Source of the DNA: Sulfurimicrobium lacus | GTDB taxonomy: Bacteria; Pseudomonadota; Gammaproteobacteria; Burkholderiales; Sulfuricellaceae | Assembly (NCBI RefSeq): GCF_011764585.1 | Contig: NZ_AP022853.1 | Span: 2,339,501 to 2,403,500, forward strand | Length of the DNA: 64,000 nucleotides | Reading direction: 5' to 3' | Shown: positions 12,256-35,006 of the stretch, in pieces | How positions within the stretch are numbered: the stretch's first letter is position 1 | How the letters are laid out: each line of letters starts with the position of its first letter | Translations under genes and position numbers: made by a program | Notes under the pieces: model-generated | What the model was told of the DNA's origin: nothing | What the model saw: the letters and a program-made list of their open reading frames with translations, nothing else | Databases searched by the model: none

Positions 12256-13558
12256 GCAAATCTGCCTCATCGAGGACGATGAGATCATGGGCGAAACACT
12301 CCTGGTTCGCCTGACCCTTGAAGGCTTTTCCTGCGATTGGTACCAGAGGGGACAGGAGGCCTTGGCCGCGCTCAAGGATAAAAACTACAATCTGGTGATC
12401 AGCGACATCCGCTTGCCGGACATCAGCGGCGACACCCTGTTCCGCCAATTGCGGGAAGCCCATGCCGCCATTCCACCATTCATTTTCATCACCGGCTTCT
12501 CCGATATTGAAACAGCGGTGGAACTTCTCAAGCTGGGCGCTCAGGATTACCTGACCAAACCGTTCGATCTGGACGCGCTGGTGGAAAAGGCGCGCGCTAT
12601 CCTCGGCGAAGCGGAGGCGGAAACCGGCGTATCGCTGGGCGTCTCACCCGCCATGCGCCATATCGAAGCGATGTTGCCCAAACTGGCCGCCGGCAACACG
12701 TCGGTGCTGATTACGGGAGAATCGGGGGTAGGCAAGGAGCGGGTTGCCCTCGCGCTGCATCGCCTGGCGCACGAAAACCGGCCATTTGTCGCGGTGAACT
12801 GCGGCGCGCTGACGGAAACGCTGCTGGAAGCCGAGTTGTTCGGGTATGAAAAAGGCGCCTTCACCGGCGCCCAGCGCACCAAGAAAGGCGTGTTCGAGCA
12901 GGCGGATGGAGGGACACTGTTTCTCGACGAAATCGGCGACATGCCTTTATCGATGCAGATCAAGGTGCTGCGCTCGATCCAGGAACGCACCATTGTCCGG
13001 GTTGGCGGCGAGACCGCCATCCCGGTTAATTTCCGGCTGATTTGCGCAACCCACCGGGACTTGAAGGCCATGGTGGAGGCCGGAGAGTTTCGCGAAGACC
13101 TCTATTACCGCGTCACAGTCATCAGCTTGCGGATTCCGCCCTTGCGGGAACGCAAGGAAGACATCTTGTGGATGGCGCACCGTTTCCTCGCAGACCTGTC
13201 GGCGCAGCACGACGGTGAGATATTTGTCTTGCAGCCCTCAACCGAACGCGCACTGCTTGACTATCGCTGGCCAGGAAACATCCGGGAACTCAAACATGCC
13301 CTGGAACGCGCCTGCGTCCTCACCGAAGGGCGGGCTCTCTCGCCGGACGCCGTTTTCGAGCGCCCCGCGAGGAGCGAAATCGCAGCCTCGAACAAGCTTT
13401 CCGCACTGGACGATTATCTGGCCGAAAGCGAGCGCAAATACATTCTGGACGCGCTGGAAAAACACAACTGGCAGATTCAAATCTGCGCCGCCGCGCTCGG
13501 CATTAGCCGCAAGAACTTATGGCAGAAGATGCGCAGGCTCAATATCAGCCGAGAGTAA
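12248..13558 (+). CDS. arxR: sigma-54-dependent response regulator ArxR (NtrC family)
   Basis: Activator of the sigma-54 promoter at 9794-9809. The 436 residues have a receiver domain (EDDE near 10, phospho-acceptor in SDIRLPD near 53, K in LTKPFD), an AAA+ domain with GESGVGKE and the sigma-54 loop GAFTGAQ, and a C-terminal Fis-type helix-turn-helix (LGISRKNLWQKM). ATG 12248 is preferred to 12242 because it is better spaced from AAGGA. The 3' end overlaps the convergent gene at 13545 by 14 nt. Confidence 0.88.
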   Translation: MSKQICLIEDDEIMGETLLVRLTLEGFSCDWYQRGQEALAALKDKNYNLVISDIRLPDISGDTLFRQLREAHAAIPPFIFITGFSDIETAVELLKLGAQDYLTKPFDLDALVEKARAILGEAEAETGVSLGVSPAMRHIEAMLPKLAAGNTSVLITGESGVGKERVALALHRLAHENRPFVAVNCGALTETLLEAELFGYEKGAFTGAQRTKKGVFEQADGGTLFLDEIGDMPLSMQIKVLRSIQERTIVRVGGETAIPVNFRLICATHRDLKAMVEAGEFREDLYYRVTVISLRIPPLRERKEDILWMAHRFLADLSAQHDGEIFVLQPSTERALLDYRWPGNIRELKHALERACVLTEGRALSPDAVFERPARSEIAASNKLSALDDYLAESERKYILDALEKHNWQIQICAAALGISRKNLWQKMRRLNISRE

Positions 13559-13946
13559 CCCCACCTTGGCGCACCAGTTCCGATTGATGAGCCGCCACCC
13601 GATCCACCGCATCATCAACGGAAAGTCCCGCCTCCACTCCGTCCATGATCATGCGCTGCAAAATGGCGCCGAGCATTTCGACATTGGCCTTGCCATGCTC
13701 CCGTAGCGCGCGCAGAAACATTACAGTATTGTTGTCCTGAAACCGCTCCTCGAATTCGTCGTAGTCCTTGCCTGTGGCAAGCCAGTAGCAGAGATCGTAT
13801 GCCAGGCTGAAAACCGGCTCCAGTTGTTCCTGACCGAGTCCCGGTATGTTCAGCCCCACTTCCTGCATCAGGTCATGTCGGAACTCGTCCAGTCCATAGC
13901 CCGCTTCGCCTTTTACCACCTGCTGTGGCGTGAATTCCCATTCCAT
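13545..13946 (-). CDS. conserved hypothetical protein, 133 aa
   Basis: I do not recognise this family. It is an acidic, mostly helical protein beginning MEWEFTPQQVVKGEAGYG, without membrane segments, signal peptide or Cys clusters. It is the last gene of the second molybdoenzyme operon, 19 nt after moaD. The first 29 bp of the gene recur exactly at 15215-15243 ahead of moaA copy 2. Its place suggests a role in maturation of the enzyme or its cofactor, but nothing in the sequence proves it. Confidence 0.7.
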   Translation of the reverse strand: MEWEFTPQQVVKGEAGYGLDEFRHDLMQEVGLNIPGLGQEQLEPVFSLAYDLCYWLATGKDYDEFEERFQDNNTVMFLRALREHGKANVEMLGAILQRMIMDGVEAGLSVDDAVDRVAAHQSELVRQGGVTLG

Positions 13947-13965
13947 GATGATTTCCTTCTGTCAG

Positions 13966-14220
13966 TTAACCGCCGGTGACCGGTGGAAAAAAGGCCACCT
14001 CGTCGCCATCGTTGATCGGCAGCGCGGACGACGCCATTTCCTGGTTCACCGCGCAGCGCAGGGCATTGTTCGTGACCAGCCGGGACCATTCGCCACCGCG
14101 GGATGCCAGGTGGGCGCGAAGTTCGGCGACCGTCACGACCGAGCCCGGCAGCGCGGTTTTTTCCTCGGATAGCCCCAGCGCGTCGCGCAGCGAGGCAAAA
14201 TACAAAAGTTTAATGGCCAT
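13966..14220 (-). CDS. moaD: molybdopterin synthase sulfur carrier MoaD
   Basis: Small ubiquitin-like protein that carries the sulfur for molybdopterin synthesis as a C-terminal thiocarboxylate. The 84 residues start MAIKLLYFASLRDALG and end FFPPVTGG; the terminal GG is the functional signature. ATG 14220 lies 2 nt after the moaA stop. The frame is open upstream to 14394 but that part overlaps moaA. MoaE, its partner, is not in the window. Confidence 0.92.
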   Translation of the reverse strand: MAIKLLYFASLRDALGLSEEKTALPGSVVTVAELRAHLASRGGEWSRLVTNNALRCAVNQEMASSALPINDGDEVAFFPPVTGG

Positions 14221-14222
14221 GA

Positions 14223-15194
14223 CTAACCTCCGGTCGATGACATGAAGCGTATGACCTTGGCTGGGTCTTCGCCGAATTCGTGTTTGAAAGGCTTGCGCCC
14301 GATGCCTTCGAGCAGCGCGGATTGCAGTTGCGCGTCGCTGCATCCGGCGCGCAGCAGGGTTCCCAAATTCACACTGTCGTTGTCGCCAAGACAAGGATAA
14401 AGGGTTCCGTCCACACCCAGACGCACGCGATTGCAGGTTTCGCAGAAATGCTGGGACATGGGCGTAATGAAACCGATCTGGAATCGCCGATCCGGGGACA
14501 CCAGGTACTTGGCTGGCCCACCTCCGGGTACGATGCCGTCCACCAGGCCAAAACGCGCGCGCAGGCGTTCCCGGATCGGGCCAAGCGGGATGAATCCTGT
14601 GTTTCTGCCCGTTTGCCCGACCGGCATGGTTTCGATCAGGCGCAACACGAACCCCTGTTCGCCGCAGTAGGCTACCATGGCGTCGATTTCGTCGTCGCTA
14701 ACCCCCGGCATCACCACCATGTTGATCTTGATCGGGCCAAAACCCTCCTCCCTTGCGGCCCTCAGGCCATCCAGCACGAACGCGAGAGCATCTCGTTTGG
14801 TGATTGCGGCGAAGCGGACCGGGTCGAGCGAGTCGAGGCTGACGTTGAGCCTGCTAATGCCGGCTTTGCGCAGCGCCTGGGCGTGTCTGGCCAACTGAGT
14901 GGCATTGGTGGAAAGCGACAAGTCCTCGATGCCGGGCAGTGCGGCAAGACGACAGGCCAGATCCGGAAGGTTGCGGCGCAACAGCGGCTCGCCGCCGGTT
15001 ACCCGGATGCGCCGCACGCCCAGGCGGCCAAACGCCCCCACCACGCGCTCGATTTCGTCGAAGTTCAGCCAGTTAGCCGGCTCCTCGTAACCCTTGAATC
15101 CCTCCGGCATGCAGTAGGCGCAGCGCAAATCGCAGCGGTCGGTAACGGACAGCCGCAGGTATTCGATTCGACGTCCGTGTCTGTCATACAACAT
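14223..15194 (-). CDS. moaA: GTP 3',8-cyclase MoaA, copy 2
   Basis: Same family and length (323 residues) as the protein at 1756-2727, with CDLRCAYC, TGGEPLLR, CETCNRVRLG plus a third Cys, and a terminal GG. It forms a moaA-moaD pair inside the second molybdoenzyme operon. Translation may be coupled to the 19-residue ORF at 15184-15243, whose stop lies just inside this gene. Each module thus brings its own cofactor gene. Confidence 0.93.
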   Translation of the reverse strand: MLYDRHGRRIEYLRLSVTDRCDLRCAYCMPEGFKGYEEPANWLNFDEIERVVGAFGRLGVRRIRVTGGEPLLRRNLPDLACRLAALPGIEDLSLSTNATQLARHAQALRKAGISRLNVSLDSLDPVRFAAITKRDALAFVLDGLRAAREEGFGPIKINMVVMPGVSDDEIDAMVAYCGEQGFVLRLIETMPVGQTGRNTGFIPLGPIRERLRARFGLVDGIVPGGGPAKYLVSPDRRFQIGFITPMSQHFCETCNRVRLGVDGTLYPCLGDNDSVNLGTLLRAGCSDAQLQSALLEGIGRKPFKHEFGEDPAKVIRFMSSTGG

Positions 15195-15243
15195 AGGCTT
15201 TCACCCTCTTCACTACCTGCTGTGGCGTGAATTCCCATTCCAT
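15184..15243 (-). CDS. 19-residue leader ORF or duplicated gene start
   Basis: A short frame MEWEFTPQQVVKRVKAYVV begins at 15243 behind GGAGGTGAA and stops 11 nt inside moaA copy 2. Its first 29 bp are identical to the start of the 133-residue gene at 13946. It is either the remnant of a duplication or a real leader peptide coupling translation to moaA. Both readings fit; only the sequence identity is certain. Confidence 0.4.
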   Translation of the reverse strand: MEWEFTPQQVVKRVKAYVV

Positions 15244-15277
15244 TTCACCTCCTCAGCCTATCTTTAAGATACGGTTT

Positions 15278-15604
15278 TCAAGTCTTCTCCGCTCGCCCTG
15301 GAATGCATTCGATCATCAGGTTGTTTTCGTTGGCGAACTCCTTCAGAAAGCGAAAGCCAGTCGGCTCGCGCTTTCTCAGCCTGACATCCACCAGCAGGGC
15401 ACGCGCGCCCCTAGCCATGACCGGCCTCACGTAAGGGGAATACCTGAACGATCGGTCCTGACTAAAAGTAGAGTACAACCCCGCCAGCCTGTCGATCCAG
15501 TCGCCCGGTCTGAAGGCGTGTCCCGAGCGGGTTACACCGAGAATCAGGATGGCGCCGGGTTGATCCGACCAATCCGCCTCCCCGGTGTTCCTGTTCTTCT
15601 TCAT
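15278..15604 (-). CDS. DUF3579 family protein
   Basis: A 108-residue cytoplasmic protein matching the DUF3579 pattern: an ILGVTRSGHAFRPGDWIDRLAG start, then YSPYVRPV. The family occurs mostly in betaproteobacteria and has no assigned function. Its ATG overlaps the stop of the TusA-like gene (ATGA), so the two are translationally coupled. Confidence 0.78.
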   Translation of the reverse strand: MKKNRNTGEADWSDQPGAILILGVTRSGHAFRPGDWIDRLAGLYSTFSQDRSFRYSPYVRPVMARGARALLVDVRLRKREPTGFRFLKEFANENNLMIECIPGRAEKT

Positions 15605-16089
15605 CCCTTACGGATGAAGAAAGTCCATACGCCCGGCCCGGTTTCCAGGGTGTCCAACAACACGTTTCCGGTCGCCGCACACCAAGTTCCGACCTCATCC
15701 CGGGTGGAACTACAGGTGCTGACGAGTTTCATGATTTGCCCCTGCACCATGGTGTTGAAAAATCTTCTCGCCTCGATCACCGGCCCGGGGCAGACCATGC
15801 CAGTCACATCCAGCGTCACATGAGGCATGAGCGCCGCCTTTTTTCCTTTGCGCACGTAGTACTCGGTCACGCCTTCAGTGCTCTTTTCGGAACGAACGAC
15901 CTCGTTCCCCGTCGCCTTCGCCCAGGAAAACAGGTCATCCCGTGTGCCGGGGCAATTGGATTTCAGCAGCAGCACTTCGCCGGTTTTCATATCATCCAGT
16001 ACCCGTTTCGCGCCCAGCAAGGGATGTGGGCATACCAGGCCCGTCATATCCACGACGATATTTGGTTTGATCAGTGTCTCGTTTCCCAT
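15601..16089 (-). CDS. tandem two-domain TusA-like sulfur carrier
   Basis: The 162 residues hold two TusA/SirA domains. The first has LVCPHPLL with Cys20 and the second MVCPGPVI with Cys100; each also keeps a second conserved Cys (SNCPGT, STCSST). Single TusA proteins are about 80 residues and pass persulfide sulfur between proteins, so a head-to-tail double carrier is notable. ATG 16089 follows AGGAGA. Next to a rhodanese and a molybdoenzyme, a role in sulfur delivery to or from the substrate or cofactor is inferred. Confidence 0.85.
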   Translation of the reverse strand: MGNETLIKPNIVVDMTGLVCPHPLLGAKRVLDDMKTGEVLLLKSNCPGTRDDLFSWAKATGNEVVRSEKSTEGVTEYYVRKGKKAALMPHVTLDVTGMVCPGPVIEARRFFNTMVQGQIMKLVSTCSSTRDEVGTWCAATGNVLLDTLETGPGVWTFFIRKG

Positions 16090-16151
16090 TTCTGCCAATC
16101 TCCTTCTATTTGTAATCGTCCAAACCACCTCCACTCGCAGCGAACTCCGAT

Positions 16152-17243
16152 TCAGCCGAAAAGCGACGCAAAGTCCTGGTCGTCCCCCTCGCAGATCGGG
16201 CAGATGTCAGCTGGCGCGGGCGAGATGAAGAAGCGGTCGCAGCGAGTGCAGCGCTGTTTGCCCAGAGCATGCAGGGTCATCGCTTCGGCTGCCTTGGCAA
16301 GATTTTCCATCTCATCCTTGAAATACAAAACATGGGGCTGGCACACCTCGACGCACACGCCGCAACCGACGCAGCGCGTGAACTCGAACCCCAGGCTCCA
16401 GGCCGTGCCGCTTTCCCTGATCTGCATCGCGCCGGTGGGGCAGGCGCGGGCGCAGGCTTCGCAGGCGGTGCAGCCGGGCCGGATGGCAACCTGCGCAGCG
16501 AGCAGGGCGGCATGGCTGGGCAAGGGCACAGGCAATTCCTGTGGCGTGTTGAACAGAATTTGCAGCAATTCCCGCCCTGCGGTGGAAAACGGCGCGGCGA
16601 AACGGATCGCCTTGAGGGGGATGGGCTGCGCCTCGCTTGCTGAAACCGGGCGCGTCAACTGGTCGGCGCCGCGCCCAACGAAGCGGCGGAACAGGTGGCG
16701 GCGGGAGGGGTTGTGCCCAGTCTTGACTAGTTCGGCTTCGCGTTCATCAGGCACGGAAATATCGGCCCACTTGTCGTTGCCGACAACGCGCCGCAGCGTC
16801 TCGACCGCCTCCAGATGGAGGCCCAGCCTGCCCTCTCCCCGCGCGCCATGTGGACATTCGGCGCAATGTTGCGTGCCGGCCAGCGTGACGGCAATGCCGC
16901 GGCTGGCGAGATAAGCCAGCATCGCCGCATCCAGGGCGCCCAGGCAGGGCACGATTTCGTCGCCCTGAAGTTCGGAAGGCGCGCAGGCGAAGCGCACTTC
17001 GGGCTGTTTGACGGCGCGCTTCAGCACCTCGATGCGGGGCAGATTGTCAGCCAGCAGCGCCTCGGTGGGGCAGGCAGCAGCACACAACGCGCAGTTCTGG
17101 CACGCCGCGGTGCGAATTGTGACGCCCTCGTCGTTCAGCTCAAGCGCTTCGTGAGGACAGGCGTCGGCGCAACGGCTGCATGCGCTGTAACGGTAGCGGT
17201 AACGGGTGCAGCGGCTGGCGCGGTATTCGGGCTGGGTCAGCAT
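16152..17243 (-). CDS. polyferredoxin-like Fe-S protein, ArxB' paralogue
   Basis: A 363-residue iron-sulfur protein with CSRCADACP, CQNCALCAAACP, HCAECPHG, CTACEACARACP, CVGCGVCVEVC and a terminal CTRCDRF/CPIC ribbon. The layout matches the protein at 8532-9761, so both modules carry this unusual subunit. No signal peptide is evident. It lies 3 nt behind the rhodanese-like gene. It may transfer electrons or help build the enzyme; the function is unproven. Confidence 0.82.
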   Translation of the reverse strand: MLTQPEYRASRCTRYRYRYSACSRCADACPHEALELNDEGVTIRTAACQNCALCAAACPTEALLADNLPRIEVLKRAVKQPEVRFACAPSELQGDEIVPCLGALDAAMLAYLASRGIAVTLAGTQHCAECPHGARGEGRLGLHLEAVETLRRVVGNDKWADISVPDEREAELVKTGHNPSRRHLFRRFVGRGADQLTRPVSASEAQPIPLKAIRFAAPFSTAGRELLQILFNTPQELPVPLPSHAALLAAQVAIRPGCTACEACARACPTGAMQIRESGTAWSLGFEFTRCVGCGVCVEVCQPHVLYFKDEMENLAKAAEAMTLHALGKQRCTRCDRFFISPAPADICPICEGDDQDFASLFG

Positions 17244-17246
17244 GGA

Positions 17247-17678
17247 TTACTTGTATTCATGCAGCGCCTGCCCCTGCTCGCAGGTATTGCTGGGGATGGT
17301 GAAGTTCTGCGGCATGATGGTTTCAGCGGTTTTGCCACCGCCCTCCTTCGCCTGTCGCCACGCGGCGTATCCGCCTTTTACCGCATACACATCCTGCCCA
17401 CTTTTTCTGGAGACACTTTGGGCAGTTTCCATCGCCTGCCGGTCGCTATCCCCCACCACCAGCGCATACCCGCCCGGCTTGGGCTTGACGCCTTCCTTGT
17501 AGATCACGGCGAAGGGAATGGGTTGTTGCTTGCGCGGACCTTCGCCGCGCGCGTCGATGATGCAGCAGGGCTGGTTTTTTTTCAGCATTTCCACGAGCTG
17601 GGCGCTGTCCAGCAACGCGGCGGTAGCGGCCCATGCCGGCGCTGACAACGCACACATCAAAGCCAGCAGCCTTTTCAT
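17247..17678 (-). CDS. exported rhodanese-like protein without catalytic Cys
   Basis: A 143-residue protein with a signal peptide (cleavage near AWA-A, residue 17) and a rhodanese-like fold: IIDARGEG near 42 and VYAVKGGYAAWRQA near 97. The loop that should hold the catalytic Cys reads LVVGDSDRQAM, so classical sulfurtransferase chemistry is unlikely. Two other Cys pairs (CC near 39, Cys near 133) remain. It is coupled to the HisA-like gene through an ATGA overlap. A binding or redox role is possible. Confidence 0.78.
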   Translation of the reverse strand: MKRLLALMCALSAPAWAATAALLDSAQLVEMLKKNQPCCIIDARGEGPRKQQPIPFAVIYKEGVKPKPGGYALVVGDSDRQAMETAQSVSRKSGQDVYAVKGGYAAWRQAKEGGGKTAETIMPQNFTIPSNTCEQGQALHEYK

Positions 17679-18373
17679 GCCGCCTCCTCCATCGCTGTCT
17701 CAATCGCTGGCTCCAGCGCCTGACGCAAGGCCAGCATCGCCGCTTCGTCGCATGTGTCCGGGACGACGATCTGCCTTGCCTGGCCGTAAATCACCCAAGG
17801 GAGCAGATTCGCCGCCGGGTCAGCCACGGGCGTCAGCCACAGGCGGGACTCGTACTGTTCCACCAGTTCGGCGCACAGGTTGAGGTCAGTGTCGTCAGCG
17901 ATGTCCACCCCGAGCAGTGCCAGCTCAGCGCCGCGATCCAGCATCTGCCCCAGCCACCAGCCGGCGTCGGTGCCGCTGCGCGCGCCGTCGCTGGTCAGCA
18001 CTTCCCAGGCGGGTTTAACTTGGGAAGGCGTGATGCATTTGAAATCGGCATTGGAATACAAATCCAGCGACCAGCTGACCTCCACGCGTTGCGCGGGAAC
18101 CCACACCCCCACTTTACCGGGCCCGAACTCCCCTGCCAGAGCCTCGATCAGGCTGCCGTCCAGCAAGGCGGCCTCGCCCACCAGCACCCGCTGTGCGCCA
18201 CGTGCCAGCAGCTCGCGGACGCGTTCCCTGCCTCCGCTCCGTAGCACCACCGATACCTGGGCTAGATCATCGGGTAGGGTAGTGCAGTCAAAAAGAAAAA
18301 CGGGCTCGGCAAAAGGACCATCTTCTGAACCAGCCCAGCGGCAAAGCGTGATTTCGGGTGCGGAATCGTTCAT
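17675..18373 (-). CDS. HisA/HisF-like protein, function unknown
   Basis: A 232-residue protein with features of the HisA TIM barrel: LFDCTTL near 28, VVLRSGGRERVRELLARGAQRVLVGEAAL (HisA-like GG..R..L..G...V..G) and a later LLGVDIADD. No other histidine gene is nearby and the phosphate-binding ends look degenerate, so a role in histidine synthesis is unlikely. It overlaps neighbours by ATGA on both sides. The frame is open upstream to 18886 but that part is a shadow of other genes. Confidence 0.62.
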   Translation of the reverse strand: MNDSAPEITLCRWAGSEDGPFAEPVFLFDCTTLPDDLAQVSVVLRSGGRERVRELLARGAQRVLVGEAALLDGSLIEALAGEFGPGKVGVWVPAQRVEVSWSLDLYSNADFKCITPSQVKPAWEVLTSDGARSGTDAGWWLGQMLDRGAELALLGVDIADDTDLNLCAELVEQYESRLWLTPVADPAANLLPWVIYGQARQIVVPDTCDEAAMLALRQALEPAIETAMEEAA

Positions 18374-18771
18374 CAATTGATCACCTGGTATGCCAGTTTG
18401 TTGAAAACGAAGGGCTGCATGGGGCAGTCGGCCTCGTGCTCCAGCCCTTCCAGCAGCGGCCGCAGGGTGTGCAGGGTTTCCAGCACCGGCGCCACTTCCA
18501 GCCCCCGGTATACCGGCAGGAACCGCGCCAGCCGCGCCAAGCCATCTTCGGCGAGCAGCGCCGCGCCGTCCTGATTGTGGTTCTGGGTGAAATAGAACGC
18601 CAGCGCGGCGAATGCGAGGCCCTGCAGAAATTGCGCATCGGGGTCCTCGTGCCCGGCCGGCCGGGTCTGGATCTGGTAGTTCCAGCGCTCGCCCAGCCAG
18701 TCGTGGACAGCGCCGAAGTTGTTGGCGTTCCACAGCAGCTCCAGTTCGTCCCAGGCGAATTCGTGATTCAT
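18373..18771 (-). CDS. DUF309-like helical protein
   Basis: A 132-residue helical protein resembling DUF309, with LLWNANNFGAVHDWLGERW near 12 and FLQGLAFAALAFYF near 47 followed by GAALL. The family usually has an E-HE-x2-E-x2-W motif; here part of it is changed (AVHDWLGERW). It is coupled by ATGA overlap to the TorD-like gene upstream and the HisA-like gene downstream. Function in the operon is unknown. Confidence 0.6.
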   Translation of the reverse strand: MNHEFAWDELELLWNANNFGAVHDWLGERWNYQIQTRPAGHEDPDAQFLQGLAFAALAFYFTQNHNQDGAALLAEDGLARLARFLPVYRGLEVAPVLETLHTLRPLLEGLEHEADCPMQPFVFNKLAYQVIN

Positions 18772-19547
18772 GCGATGGCCCTTTTTTCGTCTTTGCCGTG
18801 CTCGCAGCCGCCGCACACCGGCTCGTTGGGATTGAACAGGACCTGGATTTCGCTTTTCGGCACCACTTCCCGGCCGCCGTCGACATCGTCCACCCGCACT
18901 TTCAGTAGCGCCAGCTCCGCCTCGGCAAAATCGCGCAACAGGCGGGCGATCTCGCGGTAGAAGGAGTGCTCCGTCACACGCTCCAGCAGCGTCGAGTAGC
19001 CGCGCACCCAGCGCCCCAGATGAATGGCCCAGAAACGTTTGATTTCCTTTTCCAGCGGCCCGGCGGCAGTTGCGTCGTCGCCCTCCAGCGCCTCCGCCAG
19101 CCGCTCCAGCAGGGCCGCGACGAAGGACAACTCGATCCCGAGTTGGTCCTCGAACACGGCGAAACGGCCCGGTTGCAGCTCGAAACCGCAACGCTGGTAG
19201 ATCGCCTTCACCTCGTGATAAGGCTCCTGTTGAAAACGCCCGGTGAGGCGCGACGACTCCACCGGCGGGCACCCGCCGGCGGTGGTAAAGAGGGTGGCAT
19301 ATTCGCAAGCCAAAACATCCTGAAGCTCGCCCAAGGGAACATCGGTAAAGTCCGCGTCGAAATGCAAGCCGAGTTCGGCCAGTTCAGCCAGCGCCTGCGG
19401 CGCACGCAGGGCGGCCAGGTAAGCGCCGCCCGGCTCCTCGACGAATGCGCCCGCCAGTAACTGGTAGTAACCGGCGCGGGCGCGCAATTCCAGAGGGGAT
19501 AGGCTGTCTTCCATGTGTTCAATTAAGACTGCGTTCTGATTCTGCAT
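18768..19547 (-). CDS. TorD-family molybdoenzyme chaperone
   Basis: A 259-residue all-helical chaperone of the TorD/DmsD type, with CEYATLFTTAGGCPPVESS near 92 and EDQLGIELSFVAALLERLA near 143. It ends in a CGGCEHGKDEK segment. It should act on the TAT-exported catalytic subunit encoded at 20815-23460. It is a different branch from the chaperone at 2774-3649. A terminator-like hairpin lies just upstream. Confidence 0.85.
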   Translation of the reverse strand: MQNQNAVLIEHMEDSLSPLELRARAGYYQLLAGAFVEEPGGAYLAALRAPQALAELAELGLHFDADFTDVPLGELQDVLACEYATLFTTAGGCPPVESSRLTGRFQQEPYHEVKAIYQRCGFELQPGRFAVFEDQLGIELSFVAALLERLAEALEGDDATAAGPLEKEIKRFWAIHLGRWVRGYSTLLERVTEHSFYREIARLLRDFAEAELALLKVRVDDVDGGREVVPKSEIQVLFNPNEPVCGGCEHGKDEKRAIA

Positions 19548-19559
19548 GGTGATCCTCTC

Positions 19560-19602: not shown

Positions 19603-19628
19603 CACTCCGCACGGTTGAAGGTTGTCGC

Positions 19629-20814: not shown

Positions 20815-23460
20815 TCAATGGCCGCCGCCCTCCTTGTGCCTGACGCTCTCCGGTCCGCCCCAGGAGGCCATCTCCGGATGCATCTTGCGGTGCAGGTCGC
20901 CGGTGTAGGCGTAGCGCATGGTTTCCTTGTAGGCTTCCACGTGCTTGTCCCATGATGCCTGGACGTCGCCGTACTTGTCGTTGGGTCCGGCCTTGGTCAC
21001 CTTGACCACGGTGTCGAACCATCCCTGGGAGCCGCCGATGGGGTCGACCACTACCGGAATGATCTGGTTGGGGTGGACGCCCTTGTCCTCCCACCACACG
21101 TTGTTCAGGTCCGGGTCGTCCTGCGCGCCCCAGGCGCCACCCTTCTCGCTCTTCAGCTTGAGCTGGGCCAGCCTGCCATAGGCCCAGTGTCCGAATGCCG
21201 TCGGTATGGCCACCACCTTGGGATGAATGCCCTCGAACACATAGGCCTTGGTGACCATGTGGCCGACCTTGCTTTCCACCCGCACCAGGTCGCCGGTTTT
21301 TATGCCCAGCTTCTTGCCGGTCTCGGTGTTCATCCACACCGGATTGCTGTGCATGATCTCGGCCAGCCACTTCACCGCCGCGGTGCGCGACTGCTTGTGG
21401 ACGTTGATCTTGTAGGTGGTGAGGATCATTTCGTCGTCCTTCATCTCCTTGTGCCAGGGGATCTGCTTGAAGGTCGGCATGGGGTTGAAGCCAAAATCCG
21501 CCCACTCGTCCACGCGCACGTTGATGATCCGATTCTTGGTCGGGAAGCCGGCGTAGTTCTTGCCCTTGCGCTGGACGCCGATGGTCTTGCCGTTTTTCAC
21601 GATGGCGCCGCCCTTCTCGACCACCGCGCCGGTCATGTCGGCGGAAGACAGTTCCTTCTTGTGCAGGCCGTATTCGGGCTGGATTTCGCGCCCGGTCTTG
21701 TCCACGATCTTGCCGGTGCCCGGGTCGAGCTTGCCGTAAATCGGGAACACGCCGTGCTTTTTGAGGAAATCCAGGCCGCCCACTTCCTTCAACCCCGGCA
21801 CATTGTCGAAGTGCTGGCGCATGTAGTCCTCGCCGTCCTTGAAGTTCCAGTACTGCTTCATGCCGCGTTTGCCGTCCGGGTCCAGCTTGTGAATGATGTC
21901 GCGCATCATGATGCGGTTCTCGCGCGATTCGCCGAGCGACTTGATCACCGGCTGGCGAATGCCCAGCCACGGCCACAGGGAATTGGGCATGGACTCCGGC
22001 TCCCAGCGCTCGAGATAGGGGCAGTCGGGCAGGATGATGTCGGCCAGCGCCGTTTCCTCGCCCATGAAAGGGCTCATGGAAACGTAGAACGGAATCAGTT
22101 TCTCGTCACGGTACAGCTTGCCCCACACCGCGTCCGACCCCGGGTTGGTGTACACCGCGTTGTCCTGGTAGGAGAAATAGACGTTGATCTTCTGCTTGCC
22201 CTCGGCAATCCAGAACGGCGTGAGGTGGCTCACCTTGTGGTGAGCCAGGGGGTAATCCGGATGGTCGGCGATCCAGGAGTGCTTGGCAGGCTTGGGCGGT
22301 TCCGGCTGAGGTTGCGGCCAGCCCATGCCGCGCGGCATGCAGTAGCCGCCGCGCACCTCGATATTGCCGGTCATGATCGGCAGCATCATGGTGGCTTTCT
22401 CGTTATAGGAGCCATACAGGTGCTTGGCCGGGCCGCGGTAGGTGTAAGTCGTCGCGGGCTTGGTGGTGGCGAACTCGCGCGCGATGCGCTCGATCGTTTC
22501 CACCGGCACGCCAGACAGCTTGGAGGCCCATTCCGGCGTGAATTGCTGGTAATGCGCCTTCAGTTCCGCCACCGTGACATTGGTCCAGGTTTCGATGAAA
22601 TCGCTGTCCTGCAGGTCGTCACGCAGGATGACGTGCCCAAGGGCGAGCGCCACCGCCCCGTCGGTGCCGGGAAACACCGGGATCCACTCGTCCGAGCGGC
22701 CGGCTGTGTTGGACAGCCGCACGTCGAAAGTGACGAGTTTGGCCTTGTTGTCGGCCATGCCGTCGGCCAGGCGCTGCGAGTACGGGTTGTGGAAATAGGC
22801 CGCTTCCATGAGATTGGAACCGAAGTTGAGGATGTATTTGGCGTTGGCGAAGTCCGGAGTTTCGATGTCCGGTCCCCAGGTGGGCTCCATGCCGATCTTC
22901 TTGGAGGACTCGCACACCGAAGTGTGGTTCATGACGGTAGCCGAGCCCAGGGTATTCATGAAACGGTCGATGACGCCGCCGGAGCGGTTGCGACCGTACT
23001 TCAGCATGATGGTGTTGGGGTCTTCCTTGAGCGCCGCATCCAGCTTCTGCGCAATCTCGGTCAGCGCCTCGTCCCAGGTGATGCGCTTCCACTTGCCCTC
23101 GCCGCGTTTACCGACGCGCTTCAGCGGGTAGAGGATGCGGTCCGGGTCATAGCTGTACCACATACCAGAATTACCCTTGGCGCACAGCCGGCCGCGCGTG
23201 GAGACGTGCTCCGGGTTGCCTTCCAGCTTGACGATGCGGCCGTTCTCCACGTAAGCCATGGCACCGTCCTGGATGTTGCAGACGTGGCAAGTAATGGGGA
23301 TCGCCTTGCGTTCGGTGTAATTCACCGGGCTGAAATCCTTGCCGCCCAATTCAACTTCCATTGCCTTGAGCAACTTGGGTGAAGCCGCCGCCGCGGCCGT
23401 GGTAGCGGCGCTGGCCTGGAGGAAGGTGCGGCGCGAAATCTTGAAATTCAACATGTCCAT
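20815..23460 (-). CDS. DMSO-reductase-family molybdoenzyme, unknown substrate
   Basis: Catalytic subunit, 881 residues, with TAT signal SRRTFLQA (9-16). The N-terminal cluster motif is C-x2-C-x3-D-x27-C: Cys58, Cys61, Asp65, Cys93, so the third Cys is replaced by Asp. Cys183 in HTSVCES is the probable Mo ligand, which places it with PsrA/PhsA/TtrA/Arr/Arx-type enzymes. The position of GRGWG in ArxA reads GRNRSG here (156-161), so it is not a second ArxA. Expected periplasmic. Substrate might be a sulfur, selenium, arsenic or antimony compound; none can be proven from the sequence. Confidence 0.88.
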   Translation of the reverse strand: MDMLNFKISRRTFLQASAATTAAAAASPKLLKAMEVELGGKDFSPVNYTERKAIPITCHVCNIQDGAMAYVENGRIVKLEGNPEHVSTRGRLCAKGNSGMWYSYDPDRILYPLKRVGKRGEGKWKRITWDEALTEIAQKLDAALKEDPNTIMLKYGRNRSGGVIDRFMNTLGSATVMNHTSVCESSKKIGMEPTWGPDIETPDFANAKYILNFGSNLMEAAYFHNPYSQRLADGMADNKAKLVTFDVRLSNTAGRSDEWIPVFPGTDGAVALALGHVILRDDLQDSDFIETWTNVTVAELKAHYQQFTPEWASKLSGVPVETIERIAREFATTKPATTYTYRGPAKHLYGSYNEKATMMLPIMTGNIEVRGGYCMPRGMGWPQPQPEPPKPAKHSWIADHPDYPLAHHKVSHLTPFWIAEGKQKINVYFSYQDNAVYTNPGSDAVWGKLYRDEKLIPFYVSMSPFMGEETALADIILPDCPYLERWEPESMPNSLWPWLGIRQPVIKSLGESRENRIMMRDIIHKLDPDGKRGMKQYWNFKDGEDYMRQHFDNVPGLKEVGGLDFLKKHGVFPIYGKLDPGTGKIVDKTGREIQPEYGLHKKELSSADMTGAVVEKGGAIVKNGKTIGVQRKGKNYAGFPTKNRIINVRVDEWADFGFNPMPTFKQIPWHKEMKDDEMILTTYKINVHKQSRTAAVKWLAEIMHSNPVWMNTETGKKLGIKTGDLVRVESKVGHMVTKAYVFEGIHPKVVAIPTAFGHWAYGRLAQLKLKSEKGGAWGAQDDPDLNNVWWEDKGVHPNQIIPVVVDPIGGSQGWFDTVVKVTKAGPNDKYGDVQASWDKHVEAYKETMRYAYTGDLHRKMHPEMASWGGPESVRHKEGGGH

Positions 23461-23478
23461 TTTCTGGTTTCCTCGTTC

Positions 23479-24336
23479 TTAGAAATAGGTCTGCACGATC
23501 TGGCCGCCGACCAGGATCGAGTAGCGCAAGGCCATGCCACCCACCAGCAACAGCAGGGCGGCAAGCATCACACCCCCCTGCTGGCGCCCGAACGGCGCGA
23601 GCAGGAGCAGGATGGGCGCGGCGGTGCCGAGCAGGATGCCGACCCCGATGAAGATGCCGCCCAGTGCGCCGCTGGTCATGAACATGAAAGTCAGTTCCTG
23701 GCCGGTGCCGCCATAGGCGGTGGTACCCAGCAGCGAGATGAGCATGGCGGCCACCGCGCCGGCAGACCACAGCATGAAGCGACGCAGCATGACGAGCAGT
23801 TTTTCATTCGTCCCAGCCAGGAAAGACGCCACCGCAGCTCCGGATACCAGCGACAGGGCGACAAACAGGATCGGCATCAGCGGCGTGTTCCACACCGGGC
23901 GATTCTGGTGCACGGTGAGGTCGAAGCCGGTGTAGATCGGCAGGCCCAAAGCCAGCAGCGAACCCAGCACCGCCAGCTTGCGGCTCAAGCCTTCGTCGTT
24001 CTTGCGCATCATGAAGAAGTAAGCCACCGACACCGCGCCGAACGAGAGCAGGTTGAGCCCGCCCCAGGCCAATGGCGAGGTGAAGTTGAGGTAGGCCGGA
24101 TTCATGATATTCAGGAAACGCGCCGGTTTCGACAGGTCACCGATCAGCAGCAAGCCGCTCACCGCCAGCAGCACGAACGAGAGATAGAATGCGCTGGAAC
24201 GCAGGGTCTTGAATTCCTCGCGGTACCAGGACAGCGTGGACATGAAGAACAGCGCCGCCGAAATGCCGATGGTGAAGAAGTAAATCGAATAGGTACTCGA
24301 CCACGGCATGTGATGGAAAATATTGAAGTCACCCAT
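23479..24336 (-). CDS. NrfD/PsrC-type membrane subunit
   Basis: A 285-residue membrane protein with about eight helices and the NrfD-like signature LLIGDLSKPARFLNIMNP. It should connect the periplasmic enzyme with quinones. It lies 18 nt before the catalytic gene and 9 nt after the Fe-S subunit gene, giving order B-C-A, unlike A-B-C in the arx operon. It is shorter than ArxC. Confidence 0.88.
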   Translation of the reverse strand: MGDFNIFHHMPWSSTYSIYFFTIGISAALFFMSTLSWYREEFKTLRSSAFYLSFVLLAVSGLLLIGDLSKPARFLNIMNPAYLNFTSPLAWGGLNLLSFGAVSVAYFFMMRKNDEGLSRKLAVLGSLLALGLPIYTGFDLTVHQNRPVWNTPLMPILFVALSLVSGAAVASFLAGTNEKLLVMLRRFMLWSAGAVAAMLISLLGTTAYGGTGQELTFMFMTSGALGGIFIGVGILLGTAAPILLLLAPFGRQQGGVMLAALLLLVGGMALRYSILVGGQIVQTYF

Positions 24337-24345
24337 GATTCGCTC

Positions 24346-25053
24346 CTATCCCTGATGATTCTTGTTGAACGCCTGACGGTCCTGCTCCAGGACGTCCAGC
24401 GGGTTGTAAACGGCGCGGCCAAACTCAGAATTGTTACGATCCAGGCCGATGTAGAACACATGCGGCTTGGTCCCTTCCTCGGGACGCAGCACCTGGGTCG
24501 GCAGGGTGGACACCAGCCGCGCGACCTCGCTGGCGGGATCGTTGAGGTCGCCGAAAATGCGCGCGCGACCGATGCAGGTCACCACGCAGGCCGGTGCCAG
24601 ACCCTGTGTTACCCGGTGGTGACAGAAGGTGCACTTGTCCACCACGCTGGTAATGTCGGTATAGGTGCGGCTCTTGGGCAGCATGAAACGGGCGTTGTAG
24701 GGACAGGACGCCATGCAGGCCTTGCAGCCGATGCAGCGGTCGTAGTGCTGAAGCACGAAGCCGCCGTCTTCCACCTTGTAGGTGGCCCCAACCGGACAGG
24801 CACGCACACATGGCGGATCGTCACAGTGGTTGCACAGGCGCGGCATGAAATGCTTGCGCACGTTGGGATAGATGCCCACCACCTTGTAGGGCACCCAGGT
24901 TCTAAAAACGCCCACCGGGACATCGAACTCCGCCTTGCACGCGGTCATACAGCCGTCGCAGCCGATACAGCGACGCAGGTCGATCACCATGGCGTAGCGC
25001 CTCTTGCCTGGCACGCCGCGGGTTTCGATGGAAGACAAGCGCAATTCGCTCAT
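24346..25053 (-). CDS. four-cluster ferredoxin subunit (PsrB/TtrB-like)
   Basis: A 235-residue Fe-S subunit with CIGCDGCMTACKAE, CNHCDDPPCVRACPVG, CIGCKACMASCPYN, and CTFCHHR plus CVVTCIGRA, enough for four [4Fe-4S] clusters. ATG 25053 follows GGAGGAG; the upstream extension to 25161 is not protein-like. It is the first gene of the second operon. The predicted sigma-54 start lies about 95 nt upstream. Confidence 0.9.
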   Translation of the reverse strand: MSELRLSSIETRGVPGKRRYAMVIDLRRCIGCDGCMTACKAEFDVPVGVFRTWVPYKVVGIYPNVRKHFMPRLCNHCDDPPCVRACPVGATYKVEDGGFVLQHYDRCIGCKACMASCPYNARFMLPKSRTYTDITSVVDKCTFCHHRVTQGLAPACVVTCIGRARIFGDLNDPASEVARLVSTLPTQVLRPEEGTKPHVFYIGLDRNNSEFGRAVYNPLDVLEQDRQAFNKNHQG

Positions 25054-25157
25054 GGTTTTTGGTCTCCTCCTAGATTCCATTCCGGCCCGCCTTGATGCAC
25101 TCATCGCCACTGGCGGGCAGCCATAACCCCACATTCTTTGTGGTTGCCTTTCCATGA

Positions 25158-25172
25158 GCACTTCCCGTGCCA
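25158..25172 (-). promoter_or_regulatory. sigma-54 promoter of second molybdoenzyme operon
   Basis: On the minus strand TGGCACGGGAAGTGC: the -24 element TGGCACG is exact, GG and GC are 10 nt apart, and the -12 element is GTGC rather than TTGC. It faces the 25053 gene, giving a leader of about 95 nt. Confidence 0.75.
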
Positions 25173-25225
25173 GACAACATCACTTTGTTTATTAATGATA
25201 TTTAATCCAATGGCACGAAAAGTCA

Positions 25226-25271
25226 TTACCTTTCGGTTACAACTAGCGATTTGTGTATTACCATTTGGTAA
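25226..25271. promoter_or_regulatory. paired palindromic operators TTACC-N4-GGTAA
   Basis: TTACC-TTTC-GGTTA at 25226-25239 and TTACC-ATTT-GGTAA at 25258-25271. Their starts are 32 bp apart, about three helical turns. They sit about 55-115 bp upstream of the sigma-54 promoter, a usual place for NtrC-type enhancer sites. Related sites occur at 9897-9941. Confidence 0.62.
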
Positions 25272-25311
25272 ACATCGGCAGCCGTATCCAAATCCAGATG
25301 AGGAATGAAAC

Positions 25312-26172
25312 ATGTCGAGGAGGAAATTTTGCGCAACACTGGCCGTGTGTGCGCTGGCACCCAAGGCATTCGCCGCCGGGATGCCCGCCGAGCGGCCCAC
25401 GCTGCGCATCGGCCTTACCCCCGTTTTTCTCGACGATGAGGCCATTTTCCTGGAGGCCTGGCGTGTTTACCTGACCAAGAAGCTGCAACGTCCGGTGGTT
25501 TTCGTGCAGCGCGGCAGCTACCGTGAAATCGTCGAACTGCTGGGCAAAAACCAGCTCGACGCGGCGTGGCTTTGCGGTTTTCCTTTCGTGCGCCACGAAC
25601 AACTACTCAAGCTCCTGGCCGTACCGCTGTTCCAGGGCAAGCCACTCTACCGCTCCTATCTCATTGTCCCTGCCGACGACACGCGCACCAGAACCTTGCT
25701 CGATTTGCGCGGCAAGTCATTCGCCTATTCCGACCCGGATTCGAACTCCGGTTTTCTCTATACCCAGTTCAGCTTGGCGCAGATCAGGGAACGCTCGGAT
25801 GTCTTCTTTTCCCGCACTTTCTACACCTGGGCACACCGCAAGGTAGTGGACGCCGTCGCGGTAAAAATGGCGCAGGGTGGCGCGGTTGACGGCTATGTGT
25901 GGGAAACCTTGCGCCACTCCCATCCGGAACTCACAGCCAGAACTCGCGTAGTGGAGCAATCTCCCGAATTCGGCTTTCCGCCCTTTGTCGCCCGGAAATC
26001 ACTGCCCGAAACTGATTTCGCAGCGTTGCGGCAGGTCCTGATCGCCATGCGCGACGACGTGGAAGGCAATAAATTGCTGGCCCAGCTCAATCTGGATGGC
26101 TTCGTGCCGGGTGATCGCAAGTTATTTGACGGTATCGCGCGCATGTCTGAGAAGGTGGAACACCGCCCATGA
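25312..26172 (+). CDS. periplasmic PhnD-like sensor protein, ArxX paralogue
   Basis: A 286-residue binding protein with an N-terminal export signal (MSRRKFCATLAVCAL, cleavage near AFAA). It keeps WLCGFPFV with Cys88 aligned to Cys82 of ArxX, plus YRSYLIVP and FGFPPFVARK. It should report the ligand of this module to the kinase next to it; the ligand could differ from arsenite. Its stop overlaps the kinase start by ATGA. Confidence 0.82.
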   Translation: MSRRKFCATLAVCALAPKAFAAGMPAERPTLRIGLTPVFLDDEAIFLEAWRVYLTKKLQRPVVFVQRGSYREIVELLGKNQLDAAWLCGFPFVRHEQLLKLLAVPLFQGKPLYRSYLIVPADDTRTRTLLDLRGKSFAYSDPDSNSGFLYTQFSLAQIRERSDVFFSRTFYTWAHRKVVDAVAVKMAQGGAVDGYVWETLRHSHPELTARTRVVEQSPEFGFPPFVARKSLPETDFAALRQVLIAMRDDVEGNKLLAQLNLDGFVPGDRKLFDGIARMSEKVEHRP

Positions 26173-27617
26173 AGCACTTCCTGCGCGACCTCAGCCTGCG
26201 CTACAAGATCCCCCTGCGGGTACTCATGCTCGCCAGCATCACAGCCTTCCTGGTAACAGCGTCCATCCTGTTCCGGGTCTATGACGAAACGCGCAACGAC
26301 CTGCTGCGTCACGCAGAAAGCATGGGGCGGGTGCTGGCCAACACGCTGGTTGGCCCCATCACCCATGATGACGTGTGGCGCGCGTACGAGATCATCAACT
26401 CCCCTTTCCAGAGCGGAGGCCAGGATCAGACCCAGATCGCGGAAACCATCCTGGTGCTGGACACCAAGGGCCAAATCTATGCGTCTACCCGTCCGGCCCA
26501 GTATCCCATGCTGGCTGACCCGGGTCGGATCGATCCGGAATATGCCGCGATAAGCGAGATAGCGACAGACCGGAACGATGCCAAACCGGCTGTCATCGAC
26601 CTCCCCAATTCCAGCAGGCTGTTCGTCGCCATCCCCGTCACATCCGGAGGGGCACGCCTGGGAACCCTGGTCATGGGGTATTCCAAGAGTCTGTTCATGC
26701 CCCGCTTCATCGGCATTGCCCAGCGTGCTGCACTGATGACCCTGCTGGCGCTGGCGGTGCTGCTGCCCATCGCGTGGTACTGGGGCAACCGCATGGCCGG
26801 GCCACTGGTCCGGCTAGCCTCTTGCATGGACCAGATCGGGCCGAACGTGCCGGAACATCTCCACTGCGACCTGTTTGAATCGCACGACGAAATCGGCCGC
26901 GCCGGCGCTTCGTTCAAACGCATGCTGAAGGAGCTCAAGGACAAGGAGAGACTGGAACAGGAAATGATGATCAGCGAGCGGCTGGCGGCAGTGGGCCGGC
27001 TTTCCGCTGGGATCGCCCACGAAATCAACAACCCCCTGGGCGGCATGCTCAACACCATCAGCACCTACAAGAAGCATGGCTCGGACGACCCGCGCACGCT
27101 GAAAACACTGTCCATGCTGGAACGCGGCCTCACCCAGATCAAGGACACCGTTGCTGCCCTGCTGGTGGAAGCCAAGGTGGAAAGCCATCCGCTATCGCGC
27201 CGCGACATCGAGGACACTCGCACCCTGGTGGCCGCTGAAGCTGCCGGAAAAGGGGTTGAACTGGCGTGGGAAAACGACATCACCACCGCTTTGCCACTCC
27301 CCTCCACGCTGGTGCGGCAGATTCTCATCAATCTGCTCCTCAACGCCATCCGCGCCGCGGACAAGCGCGTCGAGTGCCTGGTTTACCGCGACAGCCGCAG
27401 CTTCACCCTAGCGGTTAAAAACGACGGCGCCCACATCGAGGAGGACGACATGCCCTACCTGTTCGAGCCTTTTTCCCGCCTCAGCCGAAACGGCCACGGC
27501 CTGGGCCTGTGGGTCACCTACCAGATCGCGCGCCAGTTGAACGGCGGCATCGTGGTCGAAAGCGACCCCGGCGAAACCAGGTTCGCCGTCACCCTACCCT
27601 TGCAGGAAGAATCATGA
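26169..27617 (+). CDS. sensor histidine kinase, ArxS paralogue
   Basis: Inner-membrane kinase, 482 residues: helix near 15-37, periplasmic sensor region, second helix near 180-200, HAMP-like linker, H-box GIAHEINNPLGG near 282, and ATPase motifs NLLLNAIRAA and GHGLGLWV. It is coupled by ATGA overlaps to the binding-protein gene and the regulator gene. Close similarity to ArxS suggests the two modules arose by duplication. Confidence 0.86.
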   Translation: MKHFLRDLSLRYKIPLRVLMLASITAFLVTASILFRVYDETRNDLLRHAESMGRVLANTLVGPITHDDVWRAYEIINSPFQSGGQDQTQIAETILVLDTKGQIYASTRPAQYPMLADPGRIDPEYAAISEIATDRNDAKPAVIDLPNSSRLFVAIPVTSGGARLGTLVMGYSKSLFMPRFIGIAQRAALMTLLALAVLLPIAWYWGNRMAGPLVRLASCMDQIGPNVPEHLHCDLFESHDEIGRAGASFKRMLKELKDKERLEQEMMISERLAAVGRLSAGIAHEINNPLGGMLNTISTYKKHGSDDPRTLKTLSMLERGLTQIKDTVAALLVEAKVESHPLSRRDIEDTRTLVAAEAAGKGVELAWENDITTALPLPSTLVRQILINLLLNAIRAADKRVECLVYRDSRSFTLAVKNDGAHIEEDDMPYLFEPFSRLSRNGHGLGLWVTYQIARQLNGGIVVESDPGETRFAVTLPLQEES

Positions 27618-28939
27618 GTAACCCTACAATCCCTTTTCTGTGTCTGATCGAGGACGATGAGATCATGGGCGAATCCCTTCTTGACCGCTTCGAGCTGGAA
27701 GGGTACCGGGTGGACTGGCACCGTACTGCCCAGTCGGCCTTGGCCGCTGTCGGGGACAAAGATTATGCGGCCGTGGTGAGCGACATCCGTCTGCCCGACG
27801 GCAGCGGAGAGGAAATCTTTATCCGCCTGCTGGAACGCGGTCTCAGCCTGCCCCCGTTTCTCTTCATCACCGGCCACGGCTCGATCGACCGCGCCGTGGC
27901 GCTGCTCAAACTGGGCGCCGCCGATTACATCACCAAGCCCTTCGACCTTGACCAACTGGTGGAAAAGGTGGGCGCCCTGTGCGGCAACCGCGTCTCCCCA
28001 TGCGAGGAGGACAACTGCCGCCTGGGCATCTCGCCGGCCATGCGCAAGATCGCGCAGACTCTGCCTCGCCTTGCCCTGCATGCACCCACCCTGCTCATCA
28101 CCGGAGAATCCGGCGTAGGCAAGGAGGTGATCGCACGGGAAATCCACCGCCTCGACCCGAGCACCACCATCCGGCCATTCGTCGCGGTCAATTGCGCCGC
28201 AATCAGTGAATCGCTGCTGGAAGCCGAACTGTTCGGCCATGAAAAGGGGGCGTTCACCGGGGCGACACGCGCACGCAAAGGGGTGTTTGAACAGGCCGAC
28301 GGCGGCACCCTGTTTCTCGACGAAATCGGCGATACGCCGCTGTCCATGCAGGTCAAGTTGCTGCGTGCCGTCCAGGAGCGAAAAATCGTGCGCGTCGGCG
28401 GCAACACCGAAATTGCCGTCAATCTCCGCCTGATCTGCGCCACCCACCGTGACCTGCGCAAGATGGTCGAGGAAGGCGCTTTTCGCGAAGACCTGTATTA
28501 CCGCATCCACGTCATTCAAATCAAGGTTCCTCCGCTGCGGGAACGGCGCGAGGACATCCTGTGGTTCGCCCAGCGTTTTTTGGAGGAACAGGCGGCCAAG
28601 GGAGAACGCAAGCAGCTTTCACGATCCGGTGAAGAAGCCTTGCTTGGCCACGCCTGGCCGGGCAACATTCGCGAGCTTCGCCATGCCATCGAACGCGCCT
28701 CGATTCTCACTCCCGGCCCGCTGCTGGAGCCTGAAGCCTTATTCGAGGAAGGAGAGCAGCCAGCGCCGGTGGACAATAAAGAACTAGGCAGCTACCTGCA
28801 AGGTTGCGAAGAGCGATACATCCGCGATGCCTTGGCGCGCAACGACGGCCACCTCGGCCGTACTGCGGAAAGTCTCGGCATCAGCCGCAAGAATTTGTGG
28901 GAAAAGATGAAAAAACTCGAAATTTCTTCGATAGGGTAA
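27614..28939 (+). CDS. sigma-54-dependent response regulator, ArxR paralogue
   Basis: A 441-residue NtrC-type activator: receiver (EDDE near 13, SDIRLPDGSG near 58, ITKPFD), AAA+ domain with GESGVGKE and GAFTGATR, and Fis-type helix-turn-helix LGISRKNLWEKM. ATG 27614 overlaps the kinase stop (ATGA); the longer open frame from 27509 is not used. It is the probable activator of the promoter at 25158-25172. Confidence 0.88.
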   Translation: MSNPTIPFLCLIEDDEIMGESLLDRFELEGYRVDWHRTAQSALAAVGDKDYAAVVSDIRLPDGSGEEIFIRLLERGLSLPPFLFITGHGSIDRAVALLKLGAADYITKPFDLDQLVEKVGALCGNRVSPCEEDNCRLGISPAMRKIAQTLPRLALHAPTLLITGESGVGKEVIAREIHRLDPSTTIRPFVAVNCAAISESLLEAELFGHEKGAFTGATRARKGVFEQADGGTLFLDEIGDTPLSMQVKLLRAVQERKIVRVGGNTEIAVNLRLICATHRDLRKMVEEGAFREDLYYRIHVIQIKVPPLRERREDILWFAQRFLEEQAAKGERKQLSRSGEEALLGHAWPGNIRELRHAIERASILTPGPLLEPEALFEEGEQPAPVDNKELGSYLQGCEERYIRDALARNDGHLGRTAESLGISRKNLWEKMKKLEISSIG

Positions 28940-34976: not shown

Positions 34977-35006
34977 GTAAGACAATCCAATAAAAATGCA
35001 TTCCCT

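Follow-up and report, generated by a model that had tools for sequence, protein, structure and literature searches.

The window analysed here is a stretch of 64,000 nucleotides of Sulfurimicrobium lacus (NZ_AP022853.1, positions 2,339,501-2,403,500, within a single contig of 3.83 Mb), and the genes at its positions 13545-28939 are, on balance, best read as a self-contained, arsenic-responsive respiratory module. The module would be a paralogous counterpart of the adjoining arx cluster, built around a different molybdoenzyme that most likely oxidises arsenite or thiolated As(III). Gene order, conservation of the gene set, the sensor pocket, the promoter motif, the separate clade of the enzyme and the linkage to arsenic genes are direct observations. 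Fourteen tightly spaced genes on the minus strand (25053-13545) face a sensor, a kinase and a regulator on the plus strand (25312-28939). A first-pass annotation, made from the nucleotide letters without database searches, had named these genes, and every one of them is found. It had also placed a small open reading frame (ORF) in the operon leader; a frame of 7 codons is present there, although the evidence for such a gene is weak.

The ligand, the substrate, the direction of the reaction and the roles of the accessory proteins are inferred, as follows. The X protein would bind an arsenic oxyanion, most likely arsenite, in the periplasm, and the kinase and the sigma-54 regulator would then switch on the operon from a -24/-12 promoter. 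The catalytic subunit, presumably exported by the twin-arginine translocation (Tat) system with a TorD-type chaperone, would convert an arsenic species in the periplasm, the most probable reaction being the oxidation of arsenite or thiolated As(III). Electrons would flow by way of the iron-sulfur (Fe-S) subunit and the NrfD anchor, either towards quinone or away from it. As(III) oxidation, whether of the plain or the thiolated form, appears likeliest, given that the sensor resembles those that bind arsenite and that the core of the module includes an ArxB2-like ferredoxin.

Sensor and promoter

The sensor gene (X, 25312-26172, plus strand) encodes a periplasmic protein of the AioX/ArxX type for arsenic oxyanions, which is 53% identical to the neighbouring ArxX. 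The sensor histidine kinase (S, 26169-27617, plus strand) and the sigma-54-dependent response regulator (R, 27614-28939, plus strand) are paralogs of ArxS and ArxR, to which they are 46% and 60% identical, respectively. The nearest solved structure to the sensor is AioX (6esv, 213 bits), while ArrX reaches 125 bits. The study of these sensors (PMC5908839) gives Y88, C106, Y131, S161, S163, H192 and D210 as the residues of the arsenite pocket of AioX. All seven are kept in 31 of 31 orthologous sensors, with one gap at D210; the pocket, promoter and Fe-S motif counts include two contigs twice (L056/L072 and L047/L078). The same study describes AioX and ArxX as binding arsenite and ArrX as binding arsenate; it reports the pocket residues to be conserved in ArrX as well and states that, by themselves, they leave the choice between As(III) and As(V) unsettled.

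The pocket shared with ArrX would suit a respiratory arsenate (or thioarsenate) reductase, that is, the same module working in the reverse direction, and the C-terminal GHWAYGR stretch of the module enzyme also matches ArrA. This reading is nevertheless quite unlikely, given the higher score of the sensor with AioX than with ArrX, the place of the ArxB2-like ferredoxin in the core and the poor agreement of the enzyme with the ArrA motif and model described below.

In a sensor tree of 40 rows, which is without ArrX, has AioX on a long branch and has a bootstrap that is not settled, 30 module sensors stand apart from ArxX with support of 100/99. An antimonite oxidase, or an enzyme for some other metalloid, could also be present in arsenic islands through the co-occurrence of As and Sb. 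The chemistries of As(III) and Sb(III) are alike, and the presence of both the module and arx in several genomes could mean that the module has a different substrate. Such an enzyme is very unlikely in view of the sensor: in PMC5908839, AioX and ArxX bind none of the other oxyanions tested, including antimonite (by isothermal titration calorimetry), tetrathionate, thiosulfate and selenate, and the module sensor has the same pocket residues.

A sigma-54-type -24/-12 site (25157-25172, minus strand; TGGCACGGGAAGTGCT, one mismatch) is predicted upstream of the operon. In 29 of 33 loci the stretch ahead of the Fe-S gene has the motif with at most two mismatches (shuffles give a mean of 2.7 and a maximum of 7), and in 11 of 33 with at most one (shuffles, mean 0.24 and maximum 3). 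The site lies 91-132 base pairs before the start codon in 28 of the 29 motif-bearing loci. A plain scan of the window for the sigma-54 motif gives no excess, with 39 found and 43 expected, and the strength of the predicted site seems to lie in its conserved position. With an AioX-type sensor, an intact set of pocket residues and a conserved sigma-54 motif, the arx-patterned regulation put forward by the first-pass annotation stands.

The catalytic subunit

The first three genes of the operon, all on the minus strand, encode a TtrB/DsrO/ArrB-like Fe-S electron-transfer subunit (24346-25053), an NrfD/PsrC-type membrane anchor (23479-24336) and the molybdoenzyme catalytic subunit (20815-23460). 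The catalytic subunit has a Molybdopterin Fe4S4 domain (PF04879, 43 bits, over the Pfam cut-off) and, as read by eye, the Tat signal RRTFLQA, in which R10, R11 and F13 are invariant in aligned orthologs. Together with the Fe-S and NrfD subunits, these features place it among the complex iron-sulfur molybdoenzymes with a molybdenum or tungsten bis-pyranopterin guanine dinucleotide cofactor.

Each known family was considered in turn for the identity of this enzyme. In the pocket it carries GRNRSG, of which G156, R157, R159, G161 and G162 are invariant across 22 aligned orthologs, where the ArxA rows in the comparison read GRGWG. Because of this difference, and also by its placement in the tree, it is not a second ArxA, as the first-pass annotation had already concluded. 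According to PMC6549141, the corresponding motif of ArrA is (R/K)GRY; this motif is absent from the catalytic subunit, which has YGRN at that place. None of the curated NCBIfam-type models for PhsA, ArrA, AioA and TtrA reaches its cut-off. The best NCBIfam score is with PhsA (NF012032, 358 bits against a cut-off of 694), followed by ArrA (NF041714, 191 against 1600), TtrA (132 against 1750) and AioA (TIGR02693, 37 against 359). TtrB and TtrC are the top-scoring models of the Fe-S and NrfD subunits, both below cut-off (220 of 416 and 57 of 314 bits, respectively); the anchor is also below cut-off with the NCBIfam NrfD model. ArrA is thus ruled out by motif and score, AioA by score, PhsA and PsrA by score and separate clade, and a Ttr enzyme by the scores of all three subunits.

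The N-terminal Fe-S motif of such molybdoenzymes is expected to have four Cys. All 33 catalytic sequences of the module instead have C-x2-C-x3-D-G, in which an Asp replaces the third Cys. At the position of the Asp, Cys is present in 22 of the 23 comparators (13 ArxA, one ArrA-like, five of a further molybdoenzyme type, three of a clade at about 40% identity and one from Rhodococcus), the 23rd being a row from a wrong-frame ORF; among the ArxA comparators the count is 12 of 13. Five truncated rows from the S. lacus genome itself have Cys in two cases and are unreadable in three.

In a catalytic tree of 40 rows, with 12 of the 33 module sequences, truncated own-genome rows, one ArxA row from a wrong-frame ORF (L107) and no TtrA, the 12 module sequences form a clade of their own (100/100). 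Outside this clade, ArxA is joined with ArrA (99/100) and PsrA with PhsA (99/99). Flags for long branches, which may reflect false joins, fall on the pairs PhsA-PsrA and ArxA-further type, while the module clade is unflagged. The nearest relatives in the tree are a betaproteobacterial clade at 39-41% identity and proteins of Rhodococcus, Thermomicrobium and Natrinema. The predicted model of the catalytic subunit (predicted local distance difference test, pLDDT, 79) has its best structural matches in polysulfide reductase and ArrA, which is consistent with the family and leaves the substrate undecided.

Conserved partners and linkage to arsenic genes

The catalytic protein, scanned for close relatives against the genomes of 84,980 species, finds the module enzyme on 28 named contigs; a plasmid of Azoarcus sp. 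KH32C also carries it. The 28 contigs represent 27 genomes, since one metagenome-assembled genome (MAG) contributes both L041 and L064, and all are Pseudomonadota by title. The hosts include Thiobacillus, Sulfuricella, Sulfuritalea, Gallionella, Sideroxydans, Hydrogenophilus, Herbaspirillum and a Bradyrhizobium MAG. Twenty-four of 29 loci reaching at least 6.5 kb downstream were used for the downstream counts (tblastn, E 1e-6). The first-pass annotation had proposed a search for the same gene set in other genomes, and five accessory genes, those for the TorD-type, DUF309, HisA-like, rhodanese-like and ferredoxin proteins, are each present in 24 of 24 loci. The 133-residue ORF is present in 20 of 24. 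Sensor, kinase and regulator are present in 22 of 23 loci reaching 5.5 kb upstream. The enzyme and its partners thus make up a single inherited unit.

The core genes are all on the minus strand. The TorD/NarJ-type chaperone (18768-19547) is assigned by Pfam Nitrate_red_del, and the DUF309 protein (18373-18771) is barely over the Pfam cut-off. The HisA/HisF-fold barrel protein (17675-18373) is below the cut-off for Pfam His_biosynth, and its predicted model (pLDDT 87) matches HisF/HisA barrels with a template modelling score of about 0.6. Of the 399 genomes in the order set, 12 have a catalytic ortholog (at least 78% identity), and the HisA-like protein (E < 1e-40) is confined to the same 12. 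A true histidine gene is ruled out for it: two weaker hits from this set are the ones that resemble ordinary hisA, and one of these, L071, sits among ORFs sized like a his operon. The rhodanese-like protein (17247-17678, Pfam Rhodanese) has a signal peptide, read by eye, and a conserved C-terminal [IV]PxxTC motif across 32 aligned rows, in all of which the active-loop Cys is missing. A catalytic rhodanese requires this Cys. The 363-residue 4Fe-4S protein (16152-17243, Pfam Fer4) is a distant paralog of ArxB2, with 29% identity. The ORF of 133 residues (13545-13946) has neither a Pfam nor a PDB match. These five proteins, from DUF309 to the 133-residue ORF, would be dedicated partners of the enzyme, perhaps with roles in maturation or electron transfer.

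The remaining genes of the operon, also on the minus strand, are optional in most cases. Eight of 29 loci have a match to the porin (19629-20717, Pfam Porin_4) no more than 10 kb away. The double TusA domain protein (15601-16089, two Pfam TusA stretches) occurs in 3 of 24 loci and the DUF3579 protein (15278-15604, Pfam DUF3579) in 2 of 24. For MoaA, of molybdenum cofactor synthesis (14223-15194), 7 of 24 loci have a match no more than 10 kb away, of which one is a fragment and one lies upstream, and for the MoaD/ThiS-family protein (13966-14220, Pfam ThiS) no match is found in the 24 loci (tblastn, E 1e-6). From these counts, the sulfur-transfer and cofactor genes appear to be local additions to the module. 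The first-pass annotation had based a chemistry of sulfur-containing or metalloid oxyanions on the sulfur-relay genes. This argument fails, because TusA and DUF3579 are optional and the core rhodanese is without its active-loop Cys; 8 of 31 enzyme-bearing genomes, moreover, have no soxB above cut-off. Tetrathionate and selenate, which it had listed as candidate substrates, find nothing in their favour beyond distant subunit similarity. Its suggestion of a metalloid oxyanion has fared better, and both the sensor pocket and the proximity of ars genes, arxA and an arrA-like gene point to arsenic.

The linkage, which points to one more means of living on arsenic or of withstanding it, takes several forms. 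The gap between the enzyme gene and arxA is 9.4-16 kb in five genomes (S. lacus, G018 of the same genus, G040 and G167 of another family, and Herbaspirillum sp. ST 5-3) and 42 kb in a sixth (G429). In Herbaspirillum sp. ST 5-3, for which no paper dealing with arsenite was found in the open literature, the module, arx, an arsC-D-A-acr3 cluster and aioA lie within about 50 kb on one contig (L117-L119). On the Azoarcus plasmid a single hypothetical gene separates the module from arsC-arsD-arsA-acr3, and in G416 the distance between the enzyme gene and an ArrA-like gene (1032 bits, below the 1600-bit cut-off) is about 9.5 kb. In the order set arxA occurs in 13 of 399 genomes and in 5 of the 12 with the module, where 0.39 would be expected (hypergeometric P 1.1e-5, uncorrected for relatedness). 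For the arsenite pump gene acr3, 7 of 32 records have a copy no more than 15 kb from the enzyme gene and 12 of 32 one no more than 50 kb away; in one further record the distance is 67 kb. Since many of the contigs are short, the counts of close neighbours are minimum values. The AioA model is over its cut-off in 4 of 36 module-bearing records. Clustering of the flanks gives few common neighbours other than the regulators and acr3.

Several observations, besides the pocket residues shared with ArrX, weigh against an arsenic function. In three genomes (G409, G424 and G430) arxA and the enzyme gene are on separate contigs. In 7 of the 12 module genomes of the order there is no arxA match (E 1e-70), so that the module is more than an appendage of arx. 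In 16 of 32 records acr3 occurs solely on a contig that is not known to bear the enzyme, and in 3 of 32 it is absent or below cut-off. The names of many module hosts mark them as sulfur oxidisers, 23 of 31 module genomes have soxB above cut-off (about 39 kb from the enzyme in G423), the best solved relative of the enzyme by score is polysulfide/thiosulfate reductase, and its clade is outside ArxA/ArrA.

The many sulfur-oxidising hosts, along with the PhsA, TtrB and TtrC scores and the TusA and rhodanese-like genes of the S. lacus copy, would agree with a polysulfide, thiosulfate or tetrathionate oxidoreductase of sulfur oxidisers that has borrowed an arsenic-type regulator. Such an enzyme is unlikely: the sensor keeps the full arsenite pocket, the genes for sulfur handling have the shortcomings described above, and soxB, taken as a yardstick and examined without dsr, hdr or tetrathionate genes, is no more than 15 kb from the enzyme gene in 0 of 31 and no more than 50 kb away in 1 of 31, against the 7 and 12 of 32 for acr3. 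Since the enzyme clade is separate from ArxA and ArrA, it might also be supposed that arsenic merely signals reducing or toxic conditions in a regulatory hybrid, whose enzyme acts on something else or balances redox. Module sensors and module enzymes, however, each form one coherent group, so sensor and enzyme have stayed together, and the linkage to genes of arsenic metabolism is recurrent; a hybrid of this kind is most improbable.

The module enzyme may represent one more arsenic-respiring lineage, which evolved independently beside Aio, Arx and Arr. This proposal is tentative, at somewhat less than an even chance; the Asp in the Fe-S motif and the fixed set of DUF309, HisA-fold, Cys-less rhodanese and ferredoxin partners would be its marks, and thiolated arsenic in sulfur-rich habitats its possible setting. 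In the literature consulted, Aio, Arx and Arr account for arsenic respiration, together with a TtrA-related arsenate reductase of archaea (PMC7331816). Among the open-literature matches listed, no description of the module is found at the level of title or abstract, although it may be in print elsewhere, in supplements or subscription journals. If the proposal is true, a share of the arsenic cycle goes undetected in surveys that use primers for aioA, arxA and arrA, with the greatest gap in freshwater sulfur- and iron-oxidising bacteria, and the module would be a natural case for testing how a single sensor family gained control of separate enzyme lineages. The Asp-containing Fe-S motif would itself be an unusual object of study.

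Related systems and neighbouring genes

The module has the same overall plan as Arx (arxXSR/arxB2ABCD), which it neighbours in the five genomes named above: divergent X-S-R genes, a Tat-exported molybdoenzyme, an Fe-S subunit, an NrfD-type anchor, a TorD-type chaperone and an ArxB2-type ferredoxin. Apart from its clade, the missing GRGWG and the N-terminal Asp, it differs in its gene order (Fe-S, NrfD, catalytic) and in its additional DUF309, HisA-like, rhodanese-like and 133-residue genes. With Arr it shares the fold, the C-terminal stretch and H-x3-C in the Mo-ligand region, while it lacks the ArrA pocket motif and has a sensor nearer to AioX than to ArrX. The A-B-NrfD subunit plan is that of Psr/Phs, which also gives the top single family score, but the clade is separate and the sensor is of an arsenic type.

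The 39-41% identical enzymes (L067, L068 and L070) are the nearest relatives in the order set and belong to the same larger clade; unlike the module enzyme, they have a complete Cys motif. Within the 18-20 kb around them, the module-like matches are the Fe-S gene (40-42% identity) and, in L068, a kinase at 29%. A precedent for another molybdoenzyme linked to arsenic in bacteria that oxidise sulfur is found in PMC6620896, in which a second, Soe-like cluster of Thioalkalivibrio is proposed for oxidation of As(III) or thioarsenate. The Soe-like protein, compared by its description in that source, is cytoplasmic and has no Tat signal, in contrast to the module enzyme.

A further molybdoenzyme type occurs in the same arsenic islands (L113:9188-11974, L115:4177-6771, L121:5950-8667, L122:16006-18666 and L123:13700-16402). 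Its members group in a single clade (100/100), separate from ArrA and from the module enzyme, and have an ArxB1-like subunit and, in some cases, TorD-like and ArxB2-like genes. In L113 and L115 the enzyme gene faces an ArxX-type sensor of its own.

At the end of the operon, the last gene and arxR of the adjoining arx cluster are convergent and overlap by 14 bases (13545-13558). The two MoaA copies in the window (14223-15194, and 1756-3045, the latter assigned by Pfam and the basis for naming the former) are 78% identical, and each is near the end of one molybdoenzyme operon. A SulP-type anion transporter gene is located at 33441-34985 of the window; a copy with 85% identity is near the module in L056 (at about 21093), and a SulP gene is also near arx on a Sulfuricella plasmid (L128:16139-17674).

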